In this document: positions 17,247-23,278 of the stretch, one piece after another
Numbering within the stretch: the stretch's first letter is position 1
Layout: the number at the start of each line of letters is the position of its first letter
IMG/VR virus record: IMGVR_UViG_3300045950_000051
Location: 1 to 26,941 of that record
Length of the DNA stretch: 26,941 bases
From: a virus
Direction: 5' to 3' (one strand)
The notes under the pieces: generated by a model
Databases searched by the model: none
What the model was told of the DNA's origin: nothing
Seen by the model: only the letters and a program-made list of their open reading frames with translations
Position numbers and translations under genes: made by a program

Positions 17247-18546
17247 TTCTTGCTAATGCCGCTTGTGGCTCTACCCGGTCTTGCTCCAGCGGCCTCCCTT
17301 CCTGGATACGCAATGGCCCAGTGGGAATTTGGGTTACATTGGCGGGCCGCAGATAGAGTTCATGCTCCGGTTTTACTGGCCACCCCAGAGCACGCCGCCC
17401 TTCAGCAATGGTCAGCAGGCCCTGATTGACCAGCGTAGTCATGCGCTGGGTCCGGACCATCTCGTCCTCCTGGAGCACCCGGATCGCCCGCAAGTCATGG
17501 ACTAGGCGGAACTCCTGCACATCTACGAAGTCATCCAGTAGTTGATGAGTCAATTCCGCCGCCGTTTCCCGGTACATCGGGATAATGGTGGACTCAAACG
17601 CTTCTTCCCTGTACTCCCTCAGAGTGGCCCCTACCTTCGTACTGGCTAGGCCAGCACCCAGACCCACCACTGCAGCGTTGACCCCCAGTACCGCTGTAAT
17701 ACGCTCTTCCGGTATACCGCGCAGTTCTCGTAGTTGCATTTGCTCGGGCGAAAAGCCAAATTGCTCAATTTTAGTTGCTCCCTCCATCACCAGGGGTTCG
17801 CCTTTCCGGTCACCGGAAAACTTCTCCAGATAGCTAGCTTTAATGCGTTCCGCCGCCGCTTGACTCACAATGCCCTGCTGCGGGCTGATGATGACCCCAG
17901 GCACTCCCATATTCCGCAGCAGGCTGGCAGTCATGTTGGAGGCTTCGTCATCGGTGAAAATCTCACGGAATAACCCCTTGATGGGGCTGAGACCTTTGCG
18001 CGGGTTCGCAGGGTCCATGCCATCTCGAAAATGCACCACATCCTCTACTCGCAGATTGATGATCCTCCCGTTGGGTGAATATTCGTAATGACTGATAAAC
18101 ACCGAGGTATCCTGATCATTCGCCCGTGGCTCTATCAGTGTTGATGGTGCCCACCACAGTTCCACCACCCGGCCACTCATGCCCCGGACCTTGAGCCAGT
18201 AGGCATTGCCAGTCAGCATCAAATCGGCCACCGTCGCCTTCCATAAGGTCGTCCCACCGTAGTAGCGATTGGGTCGGTCCAGCAAGTCCAGAACCGGGTC
18301 TCGATGAATGTCCTCCCATTCCGCCCGGTCCATCAACCATCGCTGGAGCATCAGAGGGGCCTCGGAATAGACCCGTTGCACCCAGCGCACACAAGCAATG
18401 ATGATACTATTGGCATCCGGTTTGACCTGGCTGGCGTAGTTGATATTGGTACGGTTTAACAGCAGCCAACTCGACCCGCCGCTGCGGGGGTGCATCATCC
18501 CACGCAACATCCCTACTGCCTGCGCTAGTATTCGTCCTAACATCAT
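17230..18546 (-). CDS. portal protein, HK97 family
   Basis: This 438-aa protein starts at ATG 18546, overlapping the TerL stop by four bases (ATGA). Recognisable portal features are VKPDANSIIIACVRWVQRVY near residue 45, PVLDLLDRPNRYYGGTTLWK near 85, GNAYWLKVRG near 115, DVVHFRDGMDP near 160, and the portal core 'ERIKASYLEKFSGDRKGEP' with VMEGATKIEQFGFSPEQMQL near residues 235-270, then RGIPEERITAVLGVNAAVVG. The dodecamer forms the DNA channel at one capsid vertex. The C-terminus (about 380-438) overlaps a Com-like small gene. Confidence 0.95.
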   Translation of the reverse strand: MMLGRILAQAVGMLRGMMHPRSGGSSWLLLNRTNINYASQVKPDANSIIIACVRWVQRVYSEAPLMLQRWLMDRAEWEDIHRDPVLDLLDRPNRYYGGTTLWKATVADLMLTGNAYWLKVRGMSGRVVELWWAPSTLIEPRANDQDTSVFISHYEYSPNGRIINLRVEDVVHFRDGMDPANPRKGLSPIKGLFREIFTDDEASNMTASLLRNMGVPGVIISPQQGIVSQAAAERIKASYLEKFSGDRKGEPLVMEGATKIEQFGFSPEQMQLRELRGIPEERITAVLGVNAAVVGLGAGLASTKVGATLREYREEAFESTIIPMYRETAAELTHQLLDDFVDVQEFRLVHDLRAIRVLQEDEMVRTQRMTTLVNQGLLTIAEGRRALGWPVKPEHELYLRPANVTQIPTGPLRIQEGRPLEQDRVEPQAALARNGHQG

Positions 18547-20087
18547 ACCGCTCCATACCCCCAGGTTTGCGGTTGCCCTTGCACCAGAGCCCGGCCTAGC
18601 CCCATGATGAGAGCGACCACGCCGTCGATTTTCTCAGTTGACTTCTCCTTGTCCGGTTTCAAGTTCCCAGCGGCGTCCTGACGCACAGCTACATTGGAGA
18701 CCATCCACCGCAGCACCGGGTTCTCTCCGTGCTGGATGCGCTTCCCCAGCACCAACTTTTCCAATTCCTTTGACGGACCAGTCATTGAGGCAAAGCCTTG
18801 CCCAAACTGCACTACTGTTAAACCATCTCCTTGCAACTGCGTCTGTAATTGTGTCGAGTTCCAGCGGTCTATCGCAATTTCCCGGATGTGATACCTCTGG
18901 TTTAGCTCATTTATCCTGCTCCGAATTATATCATAATCGACTACGTTGCCTTCTGTGGCCTCGATGTGCCCCTGCTGCGCCCACAGCGGATATGGCACCC
19001 GGTCCCGCTCGGCCCGCCGCCGGATGTTCTCCGCTGGCACCCAGAAATACGACAGCACAGCATAGTGCGCAGCTTGTGGGAAGACCAGCACCAGGGCTGT
19101 GATGTCCGTAGTGCTGGACAGGTCCAGCCCAGCGTAGCATGGTTGCCCCTCCAGTTCCGCCGGGTCCAGCGTGCCGCCGCAGTCGTCCCATTTCGCCATG
19201 TCCAGCCAGCGAGTTTCCTGCTCAGTCCAAATGTTCAGGTGTAGCCGCTTGAACGGGTTCTGATATCCGGGTGTCTCCTGGGCCTTCCGACATTCCTGCG
19301 CCAGATATTCCAGCTTGACTGTACTTCCCAGGCTAGGGTTCACCTTCCCCAACACATCCAGATTGGTCCAATCATCATCTTTATCCGCCGCATAAATGAT
19401 GGGCAAAAAAGAGTCATCCTGGATAATCCCATCCCGCACTTTGCAAGCATAGTCGTGGACTTCCCAGCAAATAGAGTTACGGTCATAGCCCGCTGTGGTG
19501 ATGGCAAATATTAGCGGTTGCCGCCGGGCACCCACTGATGTGGTCAGGACATCCCATAATTCCCGGTTGGGTTGGGCATGGAGCTCGTCGAAGATAATAC
19601 CATGTGCGTTGAGACCATCTTTGGTGTATGCCTCCGAGCTTAGCACTTTGTAACTGCTGGCCGTGGAGGGCACAATAATAGACCGCCGGTACGTCTGGGA
19701 GCGTTTCGCCAGGGCTGGAGCATCCCCCACCATTTGCCTCGCCGTGTCAAACACGATGGCGGCTTGCTCTCTGTCCGCCGCCGCGCTGTAGACCTCGGCG
19801 CCTGGCTCATTGTCGGCAAAAAGCAGGTACAGACCAATACACGCAGCGAGGCTTGATTTACCATTTTTTCGGGGCACTTCCACGTAACAGGTGCGGTAAC
19901 GGCGTGTGCCATCGAGCCGCCGCCAGCCAAACAGAGTCCAGACCAACTCTGCTTGCCATGGCAATAACACAAAAGGCTGTCCAGCCCACTCCCCTTTGAC
20001 GTGATGAAGGTATTCTCGAAAAAACCGGATGGGGCGTTCTGCCGATTCTGTATCAAACTTGTATGCGACAGATGGAATAGCAACCAT
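18543..20087 (-). CDS. terminase large subunit
   Basis: This 514-aa DNA packaging ATPase and nuclease starts at ATG 20087 behind GAGGATTTTTT. Walker A is VPRKNGKSS (residues 71-79), Walker B is GIIFDELHA (163-171) with the catalytic acid pair DE. The motif III-like strand is LIFAITTAG (192-200). The RNase-H-like nuclease domain begins at YAGLDLSSTTDI (318-329, catalytic D322). It also contains REIAIDRWNSTQ and closes with the acidic DGVVALIMGLGRA helix. Length and order match the HK97-type terminase. It acts with TerS, HNH and portal to package DNA. Confidence 0.95.
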   Translation of the reverse strand: MVAIPSVAYKFDTESAERPIRFFREYLHHVKGEWAGQPFVLLPWQAELVWTLFGWRRLDGTRRYRTCYVEVPRKNGKSSLAACIGLYLLFADNEPGAEVYSAAADREQAAIVFDTARQMVGDAPALAKRSQTYRRSIIVPSTASSYKVLSSEAYTKDGLNAHGIIFDELHAQPNRELWDVLTTSVGARRQPLIFAITTAGYDRNSICWEVHDYACKVRDGIIQDDSFLPIIYAADKDDDWTNLDVLGKVNPSLGSTVKLEYLAQECRKAQETPGYQNPFKRLHLNIWTEQETRWLDMAKWDDCGGTLDPAELEGQPCYAGLDLSSTTDITALVLVFPQAAHYAVLSYFWVPAENIRRRAERDRVPYPLWAQQGHIEATEGNVVDYDIIRSRINELNQRYHIREIAIDRWNSTQLQTQLQGDGLTVVQFGQGFASMTGPSKELEKLVLGKRIQHGENPVLRWMVSNVAVRQDAAGNLKPDKEKSTEKIDGVVALIMGLGRALVQGQPQTWGYGAV

Positions 20088-20416: not shown

Positions 20417-20899
20417 TTAGTTCTTCCCGAAAAAATAGGTGTCGGGGCTGTCCTGGTCTGGCCCTTTATGGACTGCTTTCACTCTGACACGGCTGGAGGG
20501 GGTGATACCAAACTCTGCCATATATGCCCTTAGTTGCCTCAGACACTCGTTCACAATGCCCATGTACGGAGATTGTTGTATCCAGCCATCTTTGTAGATG
20601 ACTAGACCAGTTTCCGTCAATTTTGTTTCTGCTTCCCTCCAGCGGGCATAAACGGTGCAATATGCCTCCAATGCCGGCAGGTCCACATCTGTCAGCACTC
20701 CCATCGCCAATAATTTGCGGCCCATGTTCCGCCAGGCTTTGCGGGCCTCACCTGTAATGTGCGATGGACAGGATGGCAACTTCTCCAGTACCGCCGGGGT
20801 TGGCTCATCCGGGTTGGCCCGGTCTGCCCTGTAGGTGCCTGCCAACAGCTTGAGCCGTGTCGGTTTTGCTTTGGCCCCCTGGCCTCGGTATGTGCTCAT
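20417..20899 (-). CDS. terminase small subunit, P27 family
   Basis: This 160-aa protein starts at ATG 20899. It has the P27-type pattern: KPTRLKLLAGTYRADRANPDEP at the N-terminus ('K...L.GnpgkR..n..eP'), PSCPSHITGEARKAWRNMGRKL ('P..L...ar..W......l...g.lt..D...l..yc'), VDLPALEAYCTVYARWREAE, and the C-terminal SPYMGIVNECLRQLRAYMAEFG ('P......... l.. ...efGltP.sR.r'). It recognises the packaging site and loads TerL. The HNH gene upstream and TerL downstream fit a cos-type packaging machine. Confidence 0.9.
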   Translation of the reverse strand: MSTYRGQGAKAKPTRLKLLAGTYRADRANPDEPTPAVLEKLPSCPSHITGEARKAWRNMGRKLLAMGVLTDVDLPALEAYCTVYARWREAETKLTETGLVIYKDGWIQQSPYMGIVNECLRQLRAYMAEFGITPSSRVRVKAVHKGPDQDSPDTYFFGKN

Positions 20900-20992: not shown

Positions 20993-21421
20993 TTATGGGG
21001 GATTGGATACATGCCCCCACCCTCCATCGGATTGCGCTGTTTTTATGCTGTGACATCTGTGGCACAGGCACTGAAGATTGCTCGCATCATCAGTCCCGCC
21101 CCGGGCCTTGGGGACGATATGGTCTACATCAGTCGCCGGAGTCAACCGTCCTTCAGCCATGCAAACCACACAATATGGTTGCTGTTGCAACATCAATTTG
21201 CGTAGTCGCTGCCAGTCAGCCCCGTACCCACGCTCCTGCCGTGTAGCACGTTGCTCATGCCGTGTAACATACTGCTTCTGCCGGATGCCACGTGTCCCTT
21301 GGTGGGCAGAGTGACCAGGACAGAGCCATTGCCCCTGCCCCACCAGGGCAGGACAGCCAGGCGCCGAACAGGGATGTGGTGCTGCCCATGCCATATTGTG
21401 ACTACTAGCACCCTCAATCAT
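20993..21421 (-). CDS. HNH endonuclease
   Basis: This 142-aa nuclease starts at ATG 21421, whose ATGATTGA overlaps the stop of the preceding gene; the frame is open further upstream, but that part lies inside the neighbour. The N-terminus has a CSAPGCP...C cluster (C18, C23, C34) that may bind zinc. The HNH domain is YCVVC (C84, C87), DVDHIVPKARGG (D100, H101), SNLQCLCHRCH (N115, C120, C123, H124). HNH proteins next to terminase genes are needed for cos cleavage in HK97-like phages, so it is most likely part of packaging rather than a homing endonuclease. Confidence 0.85.
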   Translation of the reverse strand: MIEGASSHNMAWAAPHPCSAPGCPALVGQGQWLCPGHSAHQGTRGIRQKQYVTRHEQRATRQERGYGADWQRLRKLMLQQQPYCVVCMAEGRLTPATDVDHIVPKARGGTDDASNLQCLCHRCHSIKTAQSDGGWGHVSNPP

Positions 21422-21680
21422 TCGGATCAGCTCTGAAGTACCAGGTAGCCCAACGCCCCGAAGCTCGGCCACCACCTGCTTGCTTCTCAGCGACTTGGTC
21501 CTGCCTGTCAACAGACAGGGTCTCAGTGGGCCTGTCGCCAGACAGGGCATTGAGCCGCTTCCACCGCTCAGGCGCTCTGTTGCAAAGCCAGAAAATCTGC
21601 GCTGTCACATTGCCGGAGACCGCTGATTCAAACAACGCTTCCTCTACTTGGATTAGTTGCTCATCGGATGACAACTCCAT
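21414..21680 (-). CDS. small terminase-like / DNA-binding protein, uncertain
   Basis: This 88-aa protein is given from ATG 21680, which overlaps the methyltransferase-like gene by 20 bases. An AGGAGG lies 13 bases before it; an upstream ATG 21737 is less likely. Residues 4-40 (SSDEQLIQVEEALFESAVSG, then NVTAQIFWLCNRAPERWKRL) match the end of small-terminase-like or helix-turn-helix phage proteins ('al...A.gGnvtAq.FWLknr.pe.W'). The remaining half is polar and contains two copies of a palindromic DNA repeat. The HNH and true P27-type TerS follow, so this is an accessory or relic packaging protein. Confidence 0.6.
   Translation of the reverse strand: MELSSDEQLIQVEEALFESAVSGNVTAQIFWLCNRAPERWKRLNALSGDRPTETLSVDRQDQVAEKQAGGGRASGRWATWYFRADPND
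21504..21546. repeat. two hairpin repeats with CCTGTC/GACAGG arms
   Basis: CCTGTC-AACA-GACAGG (21504-21519) and CCTGTC-GCCA-GACAGG (21531-21546) are perfect 6-bp stems with four-base loops, 27 bases apart, inside the C-terminal half of the 88-aa gene. Arms and flanks (CTGCCTGTC..GACAGG) resemble the elements at 4879 and 14051, suggesting a dispersed palindromic family. Confidence 0.65.
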
Positions 21681-22257
21681 AGTAGACCATTGACCTCCTG
21701 ATATAAGACTTAGTCTCCGTGATTGTGTAAGGAGCAATCACCTTGGCGATATGCACCAGTGCGTACCGCCGCAACCAGTAGTTATATTGGGTCCGGGCCT
21801 CATTCAGGTGGACCGATGGCCGGGCTTTCATTATGCCAAAGTCCCAGACCACGTCCCCCTTCACCACTCTCAATCTCAGTCCATCTGTGAAAAAACAGAC
21901 CAGCGGGAATATCTTGGGGGCTTCTCTCCAGAAGGCATGGAACGCAAGATAGGGGTTGCCGTAAGCATCGAAATCAGCTAGAGAGACCGAGATATCCAGA
22001 GCGGGGAATATCCAACGGTTGCAGTCGGCCACAATAAGATGGGCATTGGGTAAACGCTCACGGGCAGCCTTGATTCTCTCCGGGGCCAGATCAGCACCAT
22101 AGATAGTCCAGGTGCGGTAACAGGCATCGGCGATGTCTCCATCGCCGATGAACGGGACATAAGCCACACCGTCAGGACTTGCTTTAGACAAGAGTGAGTT
22201 GCGTAGCCACACCTTCCGGTGCAGCTCTACATGCTGCTTTCCCGTCTTCGATACCAT
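21661..22257 (-). CDS. small methyltransferase-like partner of the DUF5131 protein
   Basis: This 198-aa protein starts at ATG 22257 behind GAGGGAT, overlapping the DUF5131 gene by 74 bases. Residues 33-43 (YVPFIGDGDIA) look like the SAM-binding loop, with GADLAPERI (D56) and IVADC (D78) as the next two elements of a class I methyltransferase. DFDAYGNPY (95-103) occupies the catalytic-loop position and resembles the DPFG/DPYGSP-type motif of Trm1-like and TcmP-like proteins. It is shorter than most. The known pairing of DUF5131 proteins with a TcmP-type partner supports a two-gene module. Substrate unknown; methylation activity is inferred from motifs. Confidence 0.7.
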   Translation of the reverse strand: MVSKTGKQHVELHRKVWLRNSLLSKASPDGVAYVPFIGDGDIADACYRTWTIYGADLAPERIKAARERLPNAHLIVADCNRWIFPALDISVSLADFDAYGNPYLAFHAFWREAPKIFPLVCFFTDGLRLRVVKGDVVWDFGIMKARPSVHLNEARTQYNYWLRRYALVHIAKVIAPYTITETKSYIRRSMVYYGVVIR

Positions 22258-22966
22258 ATCCCTCTGGATATTGATGCCAGATTACTCCATCCAGCACTTT
22301 GTCGGAATCGGAGTACCTAGAGTTGCCCTGTTTGTGATAATAGGGCACTCCACTCATTATAGCCTGGTCACGGATGGAGCGAAACCAGTCGTAGTCTGCT
22401 GGGCGCCGGTCAGGTCCCGACTCTCCGCCATCAATGACCCACTGGATGCCTGGGAGGTAGCGTGTCAAATCCAGCGGCCCCAACAGCGGCTCGCATGATA
22501 AAAACCGGACAGCAGCAGGAATAGAAAGCAGGGCAGGAATCCGATTATTAGCGAAGGTCTGGTTCTCAACCGAGACCCCCAGCCATATCTGCCTGGGCAG
22601 GGGAAGACCAAGCCGGGAAATCAAATGGGCGGCCCGGTGTGGTCGCTTGGTCAAAATCTGGTAGATATGCTGTGGGGCCTCGATCATTATCTCCCAGACC
22701 TGTTTCAGGTAGTCAACCGGGATGTCCCGGTGGAAGAGATCGGACATGGAATTGACAAAGACCCGCTTCGGCTCTCGCCATTTCAGCGGGTCATGGAGGT
22801 GATGGGGCCGCAACTGGATGTCAAAGCCAACCGGGAAGGCTGGACTCCCACGCTTGGCCTCCGCTATGTTCTTGGCATAGCAGTGGTCACACCCAGGACT
22901 TATCTGGGTGCAACCCGTTACGGGGTTCCAGGTGTTCTGGGTCCAGGATATTTTAGAGTCTTTCAC
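22184..22966 (-). CDS. DUF5131 (phage Gp37/Gp68) three-cysteine protein
   Basis: This 260-aa protein is given from GTG 22966, because GGAGGGG lies six bases before it; a TTG five codons upstream has no such site. The signature is NPVTGCTQISPGCDHCYAK (C19, C26, C29), a radical-SAM-like three-cysteine motif. Further family features are RVFVNSMSDLFHRDIP, IYQILTKRPHRA, IWLGVSVENQTFANNRI, RFLSCEPLLGPL and WVIDGGESGPDRRP. The family is common in phages; the cysteines probably hold an iron-sulphur cluster or metal, and the reaction is unknown. It overlaps a methyltransferase-like partner in the same operon, downstream of the 95-aa gene. Confidence 0.9.
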   Translation of the reverse strand: MKDSKISWTQNTWNPVTGCTQISPGCDHCYAKNIAEAKRGSPAFPVGFDIQLRPHHLHDPLKWREPKRVFVNSMSDLFHRDIPVDYLKQVWEIMIEAPQHIYQILTKRPHRAAHLISRLGLPLPRQIWLGVSVENQTFANNRIPALLSIPAAVRFLSCEPLLGPLDLTRYLPGIQWVIDGGESGPDRRPADYDWFRSIRDQAIMSGVPYYHKQGNSRYSDSDKVLDGVIWHQYPEGYGIEDGKAACRAAPEGVATQLTLV

Positions 22967-22990
22967 AGATATCCCCTCCAACCAACCAGC

Positions 22991-23278
22991 CTAAACCTCA
23001 GCCTCAGCCTCTTTCAGCGCCTCCAGTGCAATCTTATTGCACTGGAGGTTGACACACTCTCGGAGCCAACTTTCGGAGAGGTTGGCTTCGACTGCCGACC
23101 GCCACTCGGCCATGCAGGCCGGCAGTTCCTTTTTGAGAGTTTCTCGGAGATGGCCGGAGATCACCTCACTGCTATCAAGTCCCAAGGCTTTCAGGTAGGG
23201 GAACCTGTTGGTCTTGTAGACCATGCTGACAGCAGCCAGCATGGTACCCTGCGTCAGTACCCCTATTAAGTCCTTCAT
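22991..23278 (-). CDS. unknown 95-aa first gene of the leftward operon
   Basis: ATG 23278 has a strong site (AAAGGAGAAAGAAG) and lies just downstream of a TTGACA promoter. The product is helical (YLKALGLDSSEVISGHLRET, later LNCNKIALEALKEAEAEV-like end) with cysteines in LPACMAEW, LRECVN and LQCNK. No family is recognised. The 3' part of the gene contains a perfect 13-bp inverted repeat and a second 7-bp one. As the first gene after the regulated promoter it may have a regulatory role; this is inference. Confidence 0.7.
   Translation of the reverse strand: MKDLIGVLTQGTMLAAVSMVYKTNRFPYLKALGLDSSEVISGHLRETLKKELPACMAEWRSAVEANLSESWLRECVNLQCNKIALEALKEAEAEV
23020..23048. repeat. perfect 13-bp inverted repeat (hairpin) inside the 95-aa gene
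   Basis: CCTCCAGTGCAAT (23020-23032) and ATTGCACTGGAGG (23036-23048) are exact reverse complements separated by three bases. It lies in the coding end of the 95-aa gene, about 55 bases before the DUF5131 start. A second inverted repeat (AGCCAAC/GTTGGCT, 23064-23087) is adjacent. No T-run follows in either direction, so it is not a simple terminator; it may be an operator, RNA processing or translational control element. Confidence 0.8.

Follow-up and report, generated by a model that had tools for sequence, protein, structure and literature searches.

Two overlapping genes of a tailed phage, one encoding a DUF5131 protein and the other a methyltransferase of 198 amino acids, probably make up a two-enzyme module for nucleic-acid modification, and the substrate we favor is the phage's own DNA at about the time that it is packaged. 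The computed support for this reading consists of two folds of SAM-using enzymes, a gene order that is kept among relatives, the replacement of one radical-SAM gene by another, and a link (in some loci a fusion) of the methyltransferase to the terminase small subunit (TerS). The enzyme classes and the linkage of the genes are well supported by these results, and from them we infer a substrate and a chemistry for the pair; fold searches give the class of an enzyme, not its substrate. DUF5131 proteins are common in phages and bacteria, and to our knowledge no reaction is known for them.

The gene pair and its surroundings

The window, by which we mean the whole stretch of DNA that was analyzed, is a complete IMG/VR record of 26,941 bases in which the tape measure, major head protein, protease, portal and terminase genes of a tailed phage are recognized. 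The features that are discussed below are as follows:

22184-22966, minus strand: DUF5131 (PF07505, E 3e-83) protein of predicted radical-SAM type, 260 aa, start codon GTG at 22966
22973-22979, minus strand: ribosome-binding-like sequence GGAGGGG, 6 bases ahead of GTG 22966
22880-22912, minus strand: CX6CX2C cluster motif CTQISPGCDHC; its three Cys columns are invariant in the DUF5131 alignment A5
21661-22257, minus strand: predicted (by its fold) class I methyltransferase of an unnamed family, 198 aa, start ATG 22257, stop 21661
22184-22257, minus strand: overlap of the open frames of the DUF5131 and 198-aa genes, 74 bases
22135-22155, minus strand: SAM-loop motif PFIGDGD, residues 35-41 of the 198-aa protein; YVPFIGD is invariant in the alignment of its family, A3
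21949-21975, minus strand: catalytic-type motif DFDAYGNPY, residues 95-103; D95, D97 and P102 are invariant in A3
21880-21894, minus strand: FFTDG motif after strand 5, residues 122-126; T124 and D125 are invariant in A3
21414-21737, minus strand: TerS remnant without its N-terminal HTH half (phrog_309 2.4e-8; family TerS profile 2e-15), possible start ATG 21680
20993-21550, minus strand: HNH endonuclease (PF01844 7.5e-14; phrog_144 1e-33)
20417-20899, minus strand: second TerS, PF05119 Terminase_4 (PF05119 1.4e-24; phrog_83 6e-40)
18543-20087, minus strand: terminase large subunit (phrog_9 1.5e-186)

The open frame of the DUF5131 gene reaches back to a TTG at 22981 (22184-22981, minus strand), and GTG 22966 is the better start because GGAGGGG precedes it. 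An earlier note made from the sequence had placed a three-cysteine CX6CX2C protein of the DUF5131 (Gp37/Gp68) family at 22184-22966, and both the PF07505 match and the ribosome-binding-like sequence bear this out; the motif cysteines are C24, C31 and C34 when numbered from the TTG. The 74-base overlap with the 198-aa gene, the GDGD loop (residues 38-41) and the DFDAYGNPY motif that it described are likewise all present. The overlap likely reflects translational coupling of both genes. It is not a chance feature of the window, because in the close relatives L206, L219 and L212 the two genes follow each other in this order too and overlap by 80, 61 and 68 bases, respectively. Directly upstream of the DUF5131 gene and on the same strand lies a gene for a 95-aa protein (22991-23278), whose family matches are all sub-threshold.

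Classes of the two enzymes

The window DUF5131 protein scores 279.5 bits with PF07505 (gathering cut-off 28.9), and the NCBIfam model TIGR04471, 'radical SAM mobile pair protein A', aligns with most of it at 1e-14, a score well below that model's cut-off. Pfam gives DUF5131 alone for this protein, and since PF04055 is unmatched in it, the radical-SAM relation rests on the fold and on a global profile alignment. The AlphaFold2 model (pLDDT 88.7), built from alignment A5 (the window protein and 42 relatives taken from fetched loci), has spore photoproduct lyase in all six of its best structural rows (Z 13.7-13.9 over ~200 residues, rmsd 3.0-3.2; the top row has Z 13.9, 198 residues and rmsd 3.0). 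Behind these come RlmN, two units lower at Z 11.7, and then viperin along with further radical-SAM enzymes, a class that fills nearly all of the 50 top rows, and Foldseek also ranks spore photoproduct lyase first. Global profile alignment of DUF5131 with a canonical radical-SAM set (P 6.7e-7, probability 85) superposes the cluster motif with a three-residue insertion, together with the downstream LTK and S-x-EP motifs. The CX6CX2C spacing is present in 158 of the 160 DUF5131 loci that could be read by pattern, and CX3CX2C is found in L011, L012 and L220. The model and the alignment thus support well a radical-SAM fold class with an enlarged cluster loop, and the cluster and the activity are predicted with it. 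The L220 protein, which is DUF5131-like, combines the canonical CX3CX2C with a weak PF04055 score and so is intermediate between DUF5131 and classic radical-SAM proteins; it adjoins a fused methyltransferase-TerS.

Might the DUF5131 protein act as spore photoproduct lyase does, reversing lesions in DNA or stripping marks from it, with the methyltransferase re-marking the DNA before packaging? That enzyme is its closest solved fold, and the packaging context described below would suit such a role, but a conserved hydrogen-donor cysteine like that of the lyase is probably absent: apart from the three cluster cysteines none is invariant in A5, and a fourth cysteine column (86%) is alanine in the window protein. 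Repair would also leave the fixed pairing with a methyltransferase unexplained, and we consider it improbable.

In the AlphaFold2 model of the 198-aa protein (pLDDT 94, pTM 0.89), strands and helices follow one another as in class I methyltransferases, giving a seven-stranded Rossmann fold with a SAM loop (YVPFIGDGD); this is the fold on which the earlier note had staked its reading. Foldseek gives 670 PDB matches at E<=0.001, and the 50 best shown are all of methyltransferase type. The first VIA-align row is Trm1 (3axs; Z 14.5 over 187 residues, rmsd 3.6), but PrmA, RNMT and others tie with it, and protein N-terminal methyltransferases (NRMT) are among the fold neighbors as well. Its assignment as a class I SAM methyltransferase is therefore well supported by the model, and methyl transfer is its predicted activity. 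By sequence the protein is harder to place. Its family has no matching family in Pfam, NCBIfam or PHROGs, and the generic Pfam methyltransferase models give weak matches only (the best across the family is 7e-5). No relatives were found by tblastn in named phages or by a single-sequence pattern search of IMG/VR, and the family was found by alignment-based pattern searches of virus contigs; direct search of the PDB gave no significant sequence relative of either this protein or the DUF5131 protein. Unfused family members are about 190-205 aa long, so the description of the partner as unusually small has to be dropped; it is small only beside TcmP. We assign motif I of the family to the P-F-x-G-x-G class known from nucleic-acid amino-methyltransferases; the PFIGDGD loop aligns with DPFMGAGG of aTrm11, a tRNA N2-guanine methyltransferase, at an E of 0.22, which is not significant.

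The earlier note drew on a known linkage of DUF5131 with TcmP. This linkage is real, in that 71 of 173 loci have TcmP close to DUF5131 (on chromosomes, 57 of 80), but the partner here is not TcmP: NCBIfam finds no TIGR04474 match in it (true TcmP neighbors of DUF5131 score 122-213 bits on that model), and hhalign gives a probability of 1.2-1.4. That the 198-aa gene is a degenerate TcmP, an idea that came from its D-x-[YF] motif, likewise gets no support from profile comparison.

The resemblance of DFDAYGNPY to the DPYG type of motif in Trm1 stands in part. Trm1 is the top structural row and the D-x-[YF]-x-x-P and T-D motifs are in register with it, but the row is a tied one and the profile alignment is statistically weak (hhalign probability 31-42, P 2.6e-4 to 5.2e-4). 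This alignment sets DFDAYxxP on DxDPFGSP and FFTD on TATD; D-A-Y-x-x-P and T-D are thus in register, and the P and G of DPFG are not conserved in the family. Furthermore, no member of A3 matches PF02005 (Trm1), and the 198-aa protein is without the C-terminal Trm1 domain. TcmP (alignment A4) aligns with Trm1 at probability 81 and P 1.2e-5, with DPFG on the DPWG of TcmP. Judging from these motif alignments, both types of partner found with DUF5131 may have a catalytic motif of Trm1 type in common while having no detectable direct similarity to each other, and the likeness of TcmP to Trm1 gives a hint at the reaction that the DUF5131-TcmP defense candidates may carry out.

The main rival to a DNA substrate is RNA. 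A methyltransferase resembling Trm1, together with a radical-SAM enzyme resembling RlmN, could modify tRNA or rRNA and in this way change translation in the host or protect that of the phage from a tRNA-cutting defense. The top structural row of the 198-aa protein with its motifs in register, the tRNA enzyme in its weak profile match, and RlmN as second fold neighbor of the DUF5131 protein all point this way. Set against them are the tied and statistically weak nature of the Trm1 match, the lack of a recognized RNA-binding domain, the lack of a tRNA gene in the window and fusion or adjacency to TerS in 45 of 50 loci (below), which has no obvious role in tRNA modification. We regard an RNA substrate as unlikely, and of the targets left open in the earlier note (tRNA, DNA or a phage product) the packaging context favors DNA.

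Linkage across virus contigs and the terminase small subunit

The 198-aa family is present in 49 virus contigs besides the window, and whole-record searches find DUF5131 in 27 of these, upstream and on the same strand; the pair is thus conserved together in relatives, as the earlier note had expected. PF04055 proteins above the cut-off are found in 11 of the 49 contigs, one of which also has DUF5131, leaving ten with PF04055 alone, and those examined belong to the PA0069/Rv2578c/Spl branch; GP88 is found in two near-identical contigs. All linked virus loci have their radical-SAM-type gene upstream of the methyltransferase and on its strand. Co-occurrence of DUF5131 and PF04055 in a single contig of 49 is rarer than expected (Fisher p 6e-4 before correction for relatedness). 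Clustering at 70% identity of the loci with at least 1 kb of upstream DNA gives 36 lineages, of which 24 have DUF5131, 8 a radical-SAM gene, 1 GP88 and 3 none of these; with 90% clustering, 4 of the 39 lineages with sequenced upstream DNA have no radical-SAM-type gene. The tree, many branches of which are weak, requires a minimum of 5 exchanges between DUF5131 and radical-SAM genes. That a canonical PA0069/Spl-type radical-SAM gene can replace DUF5131 upstream of the methyltransferase is supported by these results.

An exception to the gene order was found in one of 400 sampled Chloroflexota genomes, where the radical-SAM gene lies on the opposite flank of a fused methyltransferase-TerS, at a distance of 1.4 kb; this carries no host assignment for the window. 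In L191 and L192 (1336-2121), which have no DUF5131, the gene ahead of the methyltransferase encodes GP88 (PF17338); this protein contains three cysteines in a stretch that ends with CYA, and its family may be a further divergent branch of radical-SAM proteins.

DUF5131 itself usually occurs without a methyltransferase of the 198-aa type (79 of 80 viral loci), so its reaction need not require the methyltransferase. Pairing of DUF5131 with a methyltransferase is also not a general rule in isolated phages, where 12 loci include one TcmP-like neighbor (L002, convergent) and none with an adjacent partner of the 198-aa type. ASCH-like or 'KTQTRR' proteins are encoded at or near lone DUF5131 genes of a cyanophage, a Burkholderia phage and a Labrenzia phage (L006 4112-4798, L010 4789-5508 and L007 4023-4472), and they are a possible second kind of DUF5131 partner.

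On the downstream side the usual neighbor is TerS. A TerS profile applied to the 50 loci finds TerS fused to the methyltransferase in 13 and encoded by the next gene in 32, and PHROGs finds a TerS domain in 9 of the 10 long methyltransferase proteins (C-terminal in eight, N-terminal in L188). Are both enzyme genes simply found near TerS? As a control, the same TerS family was fetched separately and its loci were split by presence or absence of the methyltransferase: a DUF5131 or radical-SAM gene is present in 13 of the 17 TerS loci with it and in 0 of the 52 without it (p 6e-11, an optimistic value because the loci include a few near-copies, although the contrast is still large). Location bias is ruled out by this control, and the enzyme-enzyme link is therefore not a positional side effect. 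TerS of the cassette family is found in only 2 of the 80 viral DUF5131 loci.

The control bears on two further alternatives. In one, an ordinary orphan methyltransferase sits at a packaging hotspot and an unrelated DUF5131 gene lies upstream of it by chance. Orphan methyltransferases of packaging modules are known in lactococcal 936 phages (PMC4190342), and DUF5131 is often alone, but independence does not account for the control contrast, for the upstream position on the same strand in every linked virus contig, or for the canonical radical-SAM gene that fills the place where DUF5131 is absent; it is the reading to which we give the least credence. In the other, both enzymes would modify a protein such as TerS or another packaging protein. 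The methyltransferase-TerS fusions and the presence of NRMT and PrmA among the fold neighbors agree with this, but motif I and D-A-Y are of a type that belongs to nucleic-acid amino-methyltransferases and TerS of the same family is usually without the pair (the 52 loci), and we think a protein substrate very improbable.

In the window itself the TerS next to the pair has lost its N-terminal, DNA-binding half, and it is followed by the HNH gene and then by the Terminase_4-type TerS ahead of the large subunit. A TerS other than the remnant probably serves the terminase here, and the packaging tie is weaker in this phage because the adjacent TerS is a remnant without the DNA-binding half. The presence in one phage of two unlike TerS genes, the truncated cassette-family one and the Terminase_4 one, with HNH between them, looks as if an HNH-terminase segment had replaced the packaging start.

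Proposed reaction and comparison with known systems

Modification of phage DNA could proceed as follows: The DUF5131 protein, as a radical-SAM enzyme of the spore-photoproduct-lyase branch, would hold a [4Fe-4S] cluster with its three cysteines, cleave SAM and attack a substrate carbon that is unreactive. The 198-aa protein, translated together with it, would be a conventional SAM enzyme of base-amino-methyltransferase type and would methylate the same or a nearby base. Because the methyltransferase of this family is coupled or fused to TerS, phage DNA is most likely marked around packaging, and the modification would be set shortly before or during it; it might shield the DNA from host nucleases at the next infection, or it might mark the packaging site. 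We infer, then, that both enzymes are active, that they share a nucleic-acid substrate, that this is phage DNA, and that protection or a packaging mark is the purpose. A more specific form of the proposal, which we put forward tentatively, is a packaging-coupled DNA hypermodification in which an exchangeable Spl-type radical-SAM enzyme and a methyltransferase dedicated to the task, both brought to phage DNA through the TerS linkage or fusion, would make a base that is so far undescribed. The radical-SAM class of DUF5131, its replacement by canonical radical-SAM genes and the link to TerS all go beyond the earlier note, and the Spl-type class, the exchangeable gene and the TerS tie lead to a testable question: does the packaged DNA contain a new base? 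If so, radical chemistry would be added to the means by which phages mark their DNA, and DNA modification would be physically tied to packaging.

How does the module differ from systems already known? Spore photoproduct lyase and the PA0069/Rv2578c families share with DUF5131 the fold and collinear motifs, and PA0069-like members stand in for it in the ten contigs above; most DUF5131 proteins differ from them in having CX6CX2C and not CX3CX2C, and they probably lack the extra conserved cysteine of lyase type. Methyltransferase genes beside TerS have precedents in restriction protection or packaging control: the packaging-module enzymes of lactococcal 936 phages give protection, and GATC methylation is needed for efficient packaging of P1 (PMC4190342). 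These are ordinary m6A enzymes, and the text that we read mentions neither TerS fusion nor radical-SAM pairing for them. DUF5131, TerS-methyltransferase fusion and GMT-wHTH were each looked for in the open-access literature, and nothing was found. For Sinorhizobium, a list of upregulated genes places a TcmP gene beside the Hna helicase (PMC12445080).

The DUF5131-TcmP pairs (PDC-M30 and PDC-M41 in PADLOC) have the same DUF5131 beside a SAM methyltransferase-like protein. DUF5131 matches the PADLOC B components (PDC-M41B/M30B) and TcmP the A components (PDC-M30A/M41A), whereas the 198-aa protein matches neither A component; it belongs to another, smaller methyltransferase family without profile similarity to TcmP. 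The TcmP pairs are mostly chromosomal, and the module here is phage-borne and lies at the terminase. It has DUF5131 in common with those pairs but no TcmP and is thus distinct from them; the present results also bear on these pairs, which appear in defense catalogs without a mechanism. In the genome loci L094-L172, TcmP lies upstream or downstream of DUF5131 or convergent with it (with an overlap of a few bases), so that the order is free and the pairing is kept.
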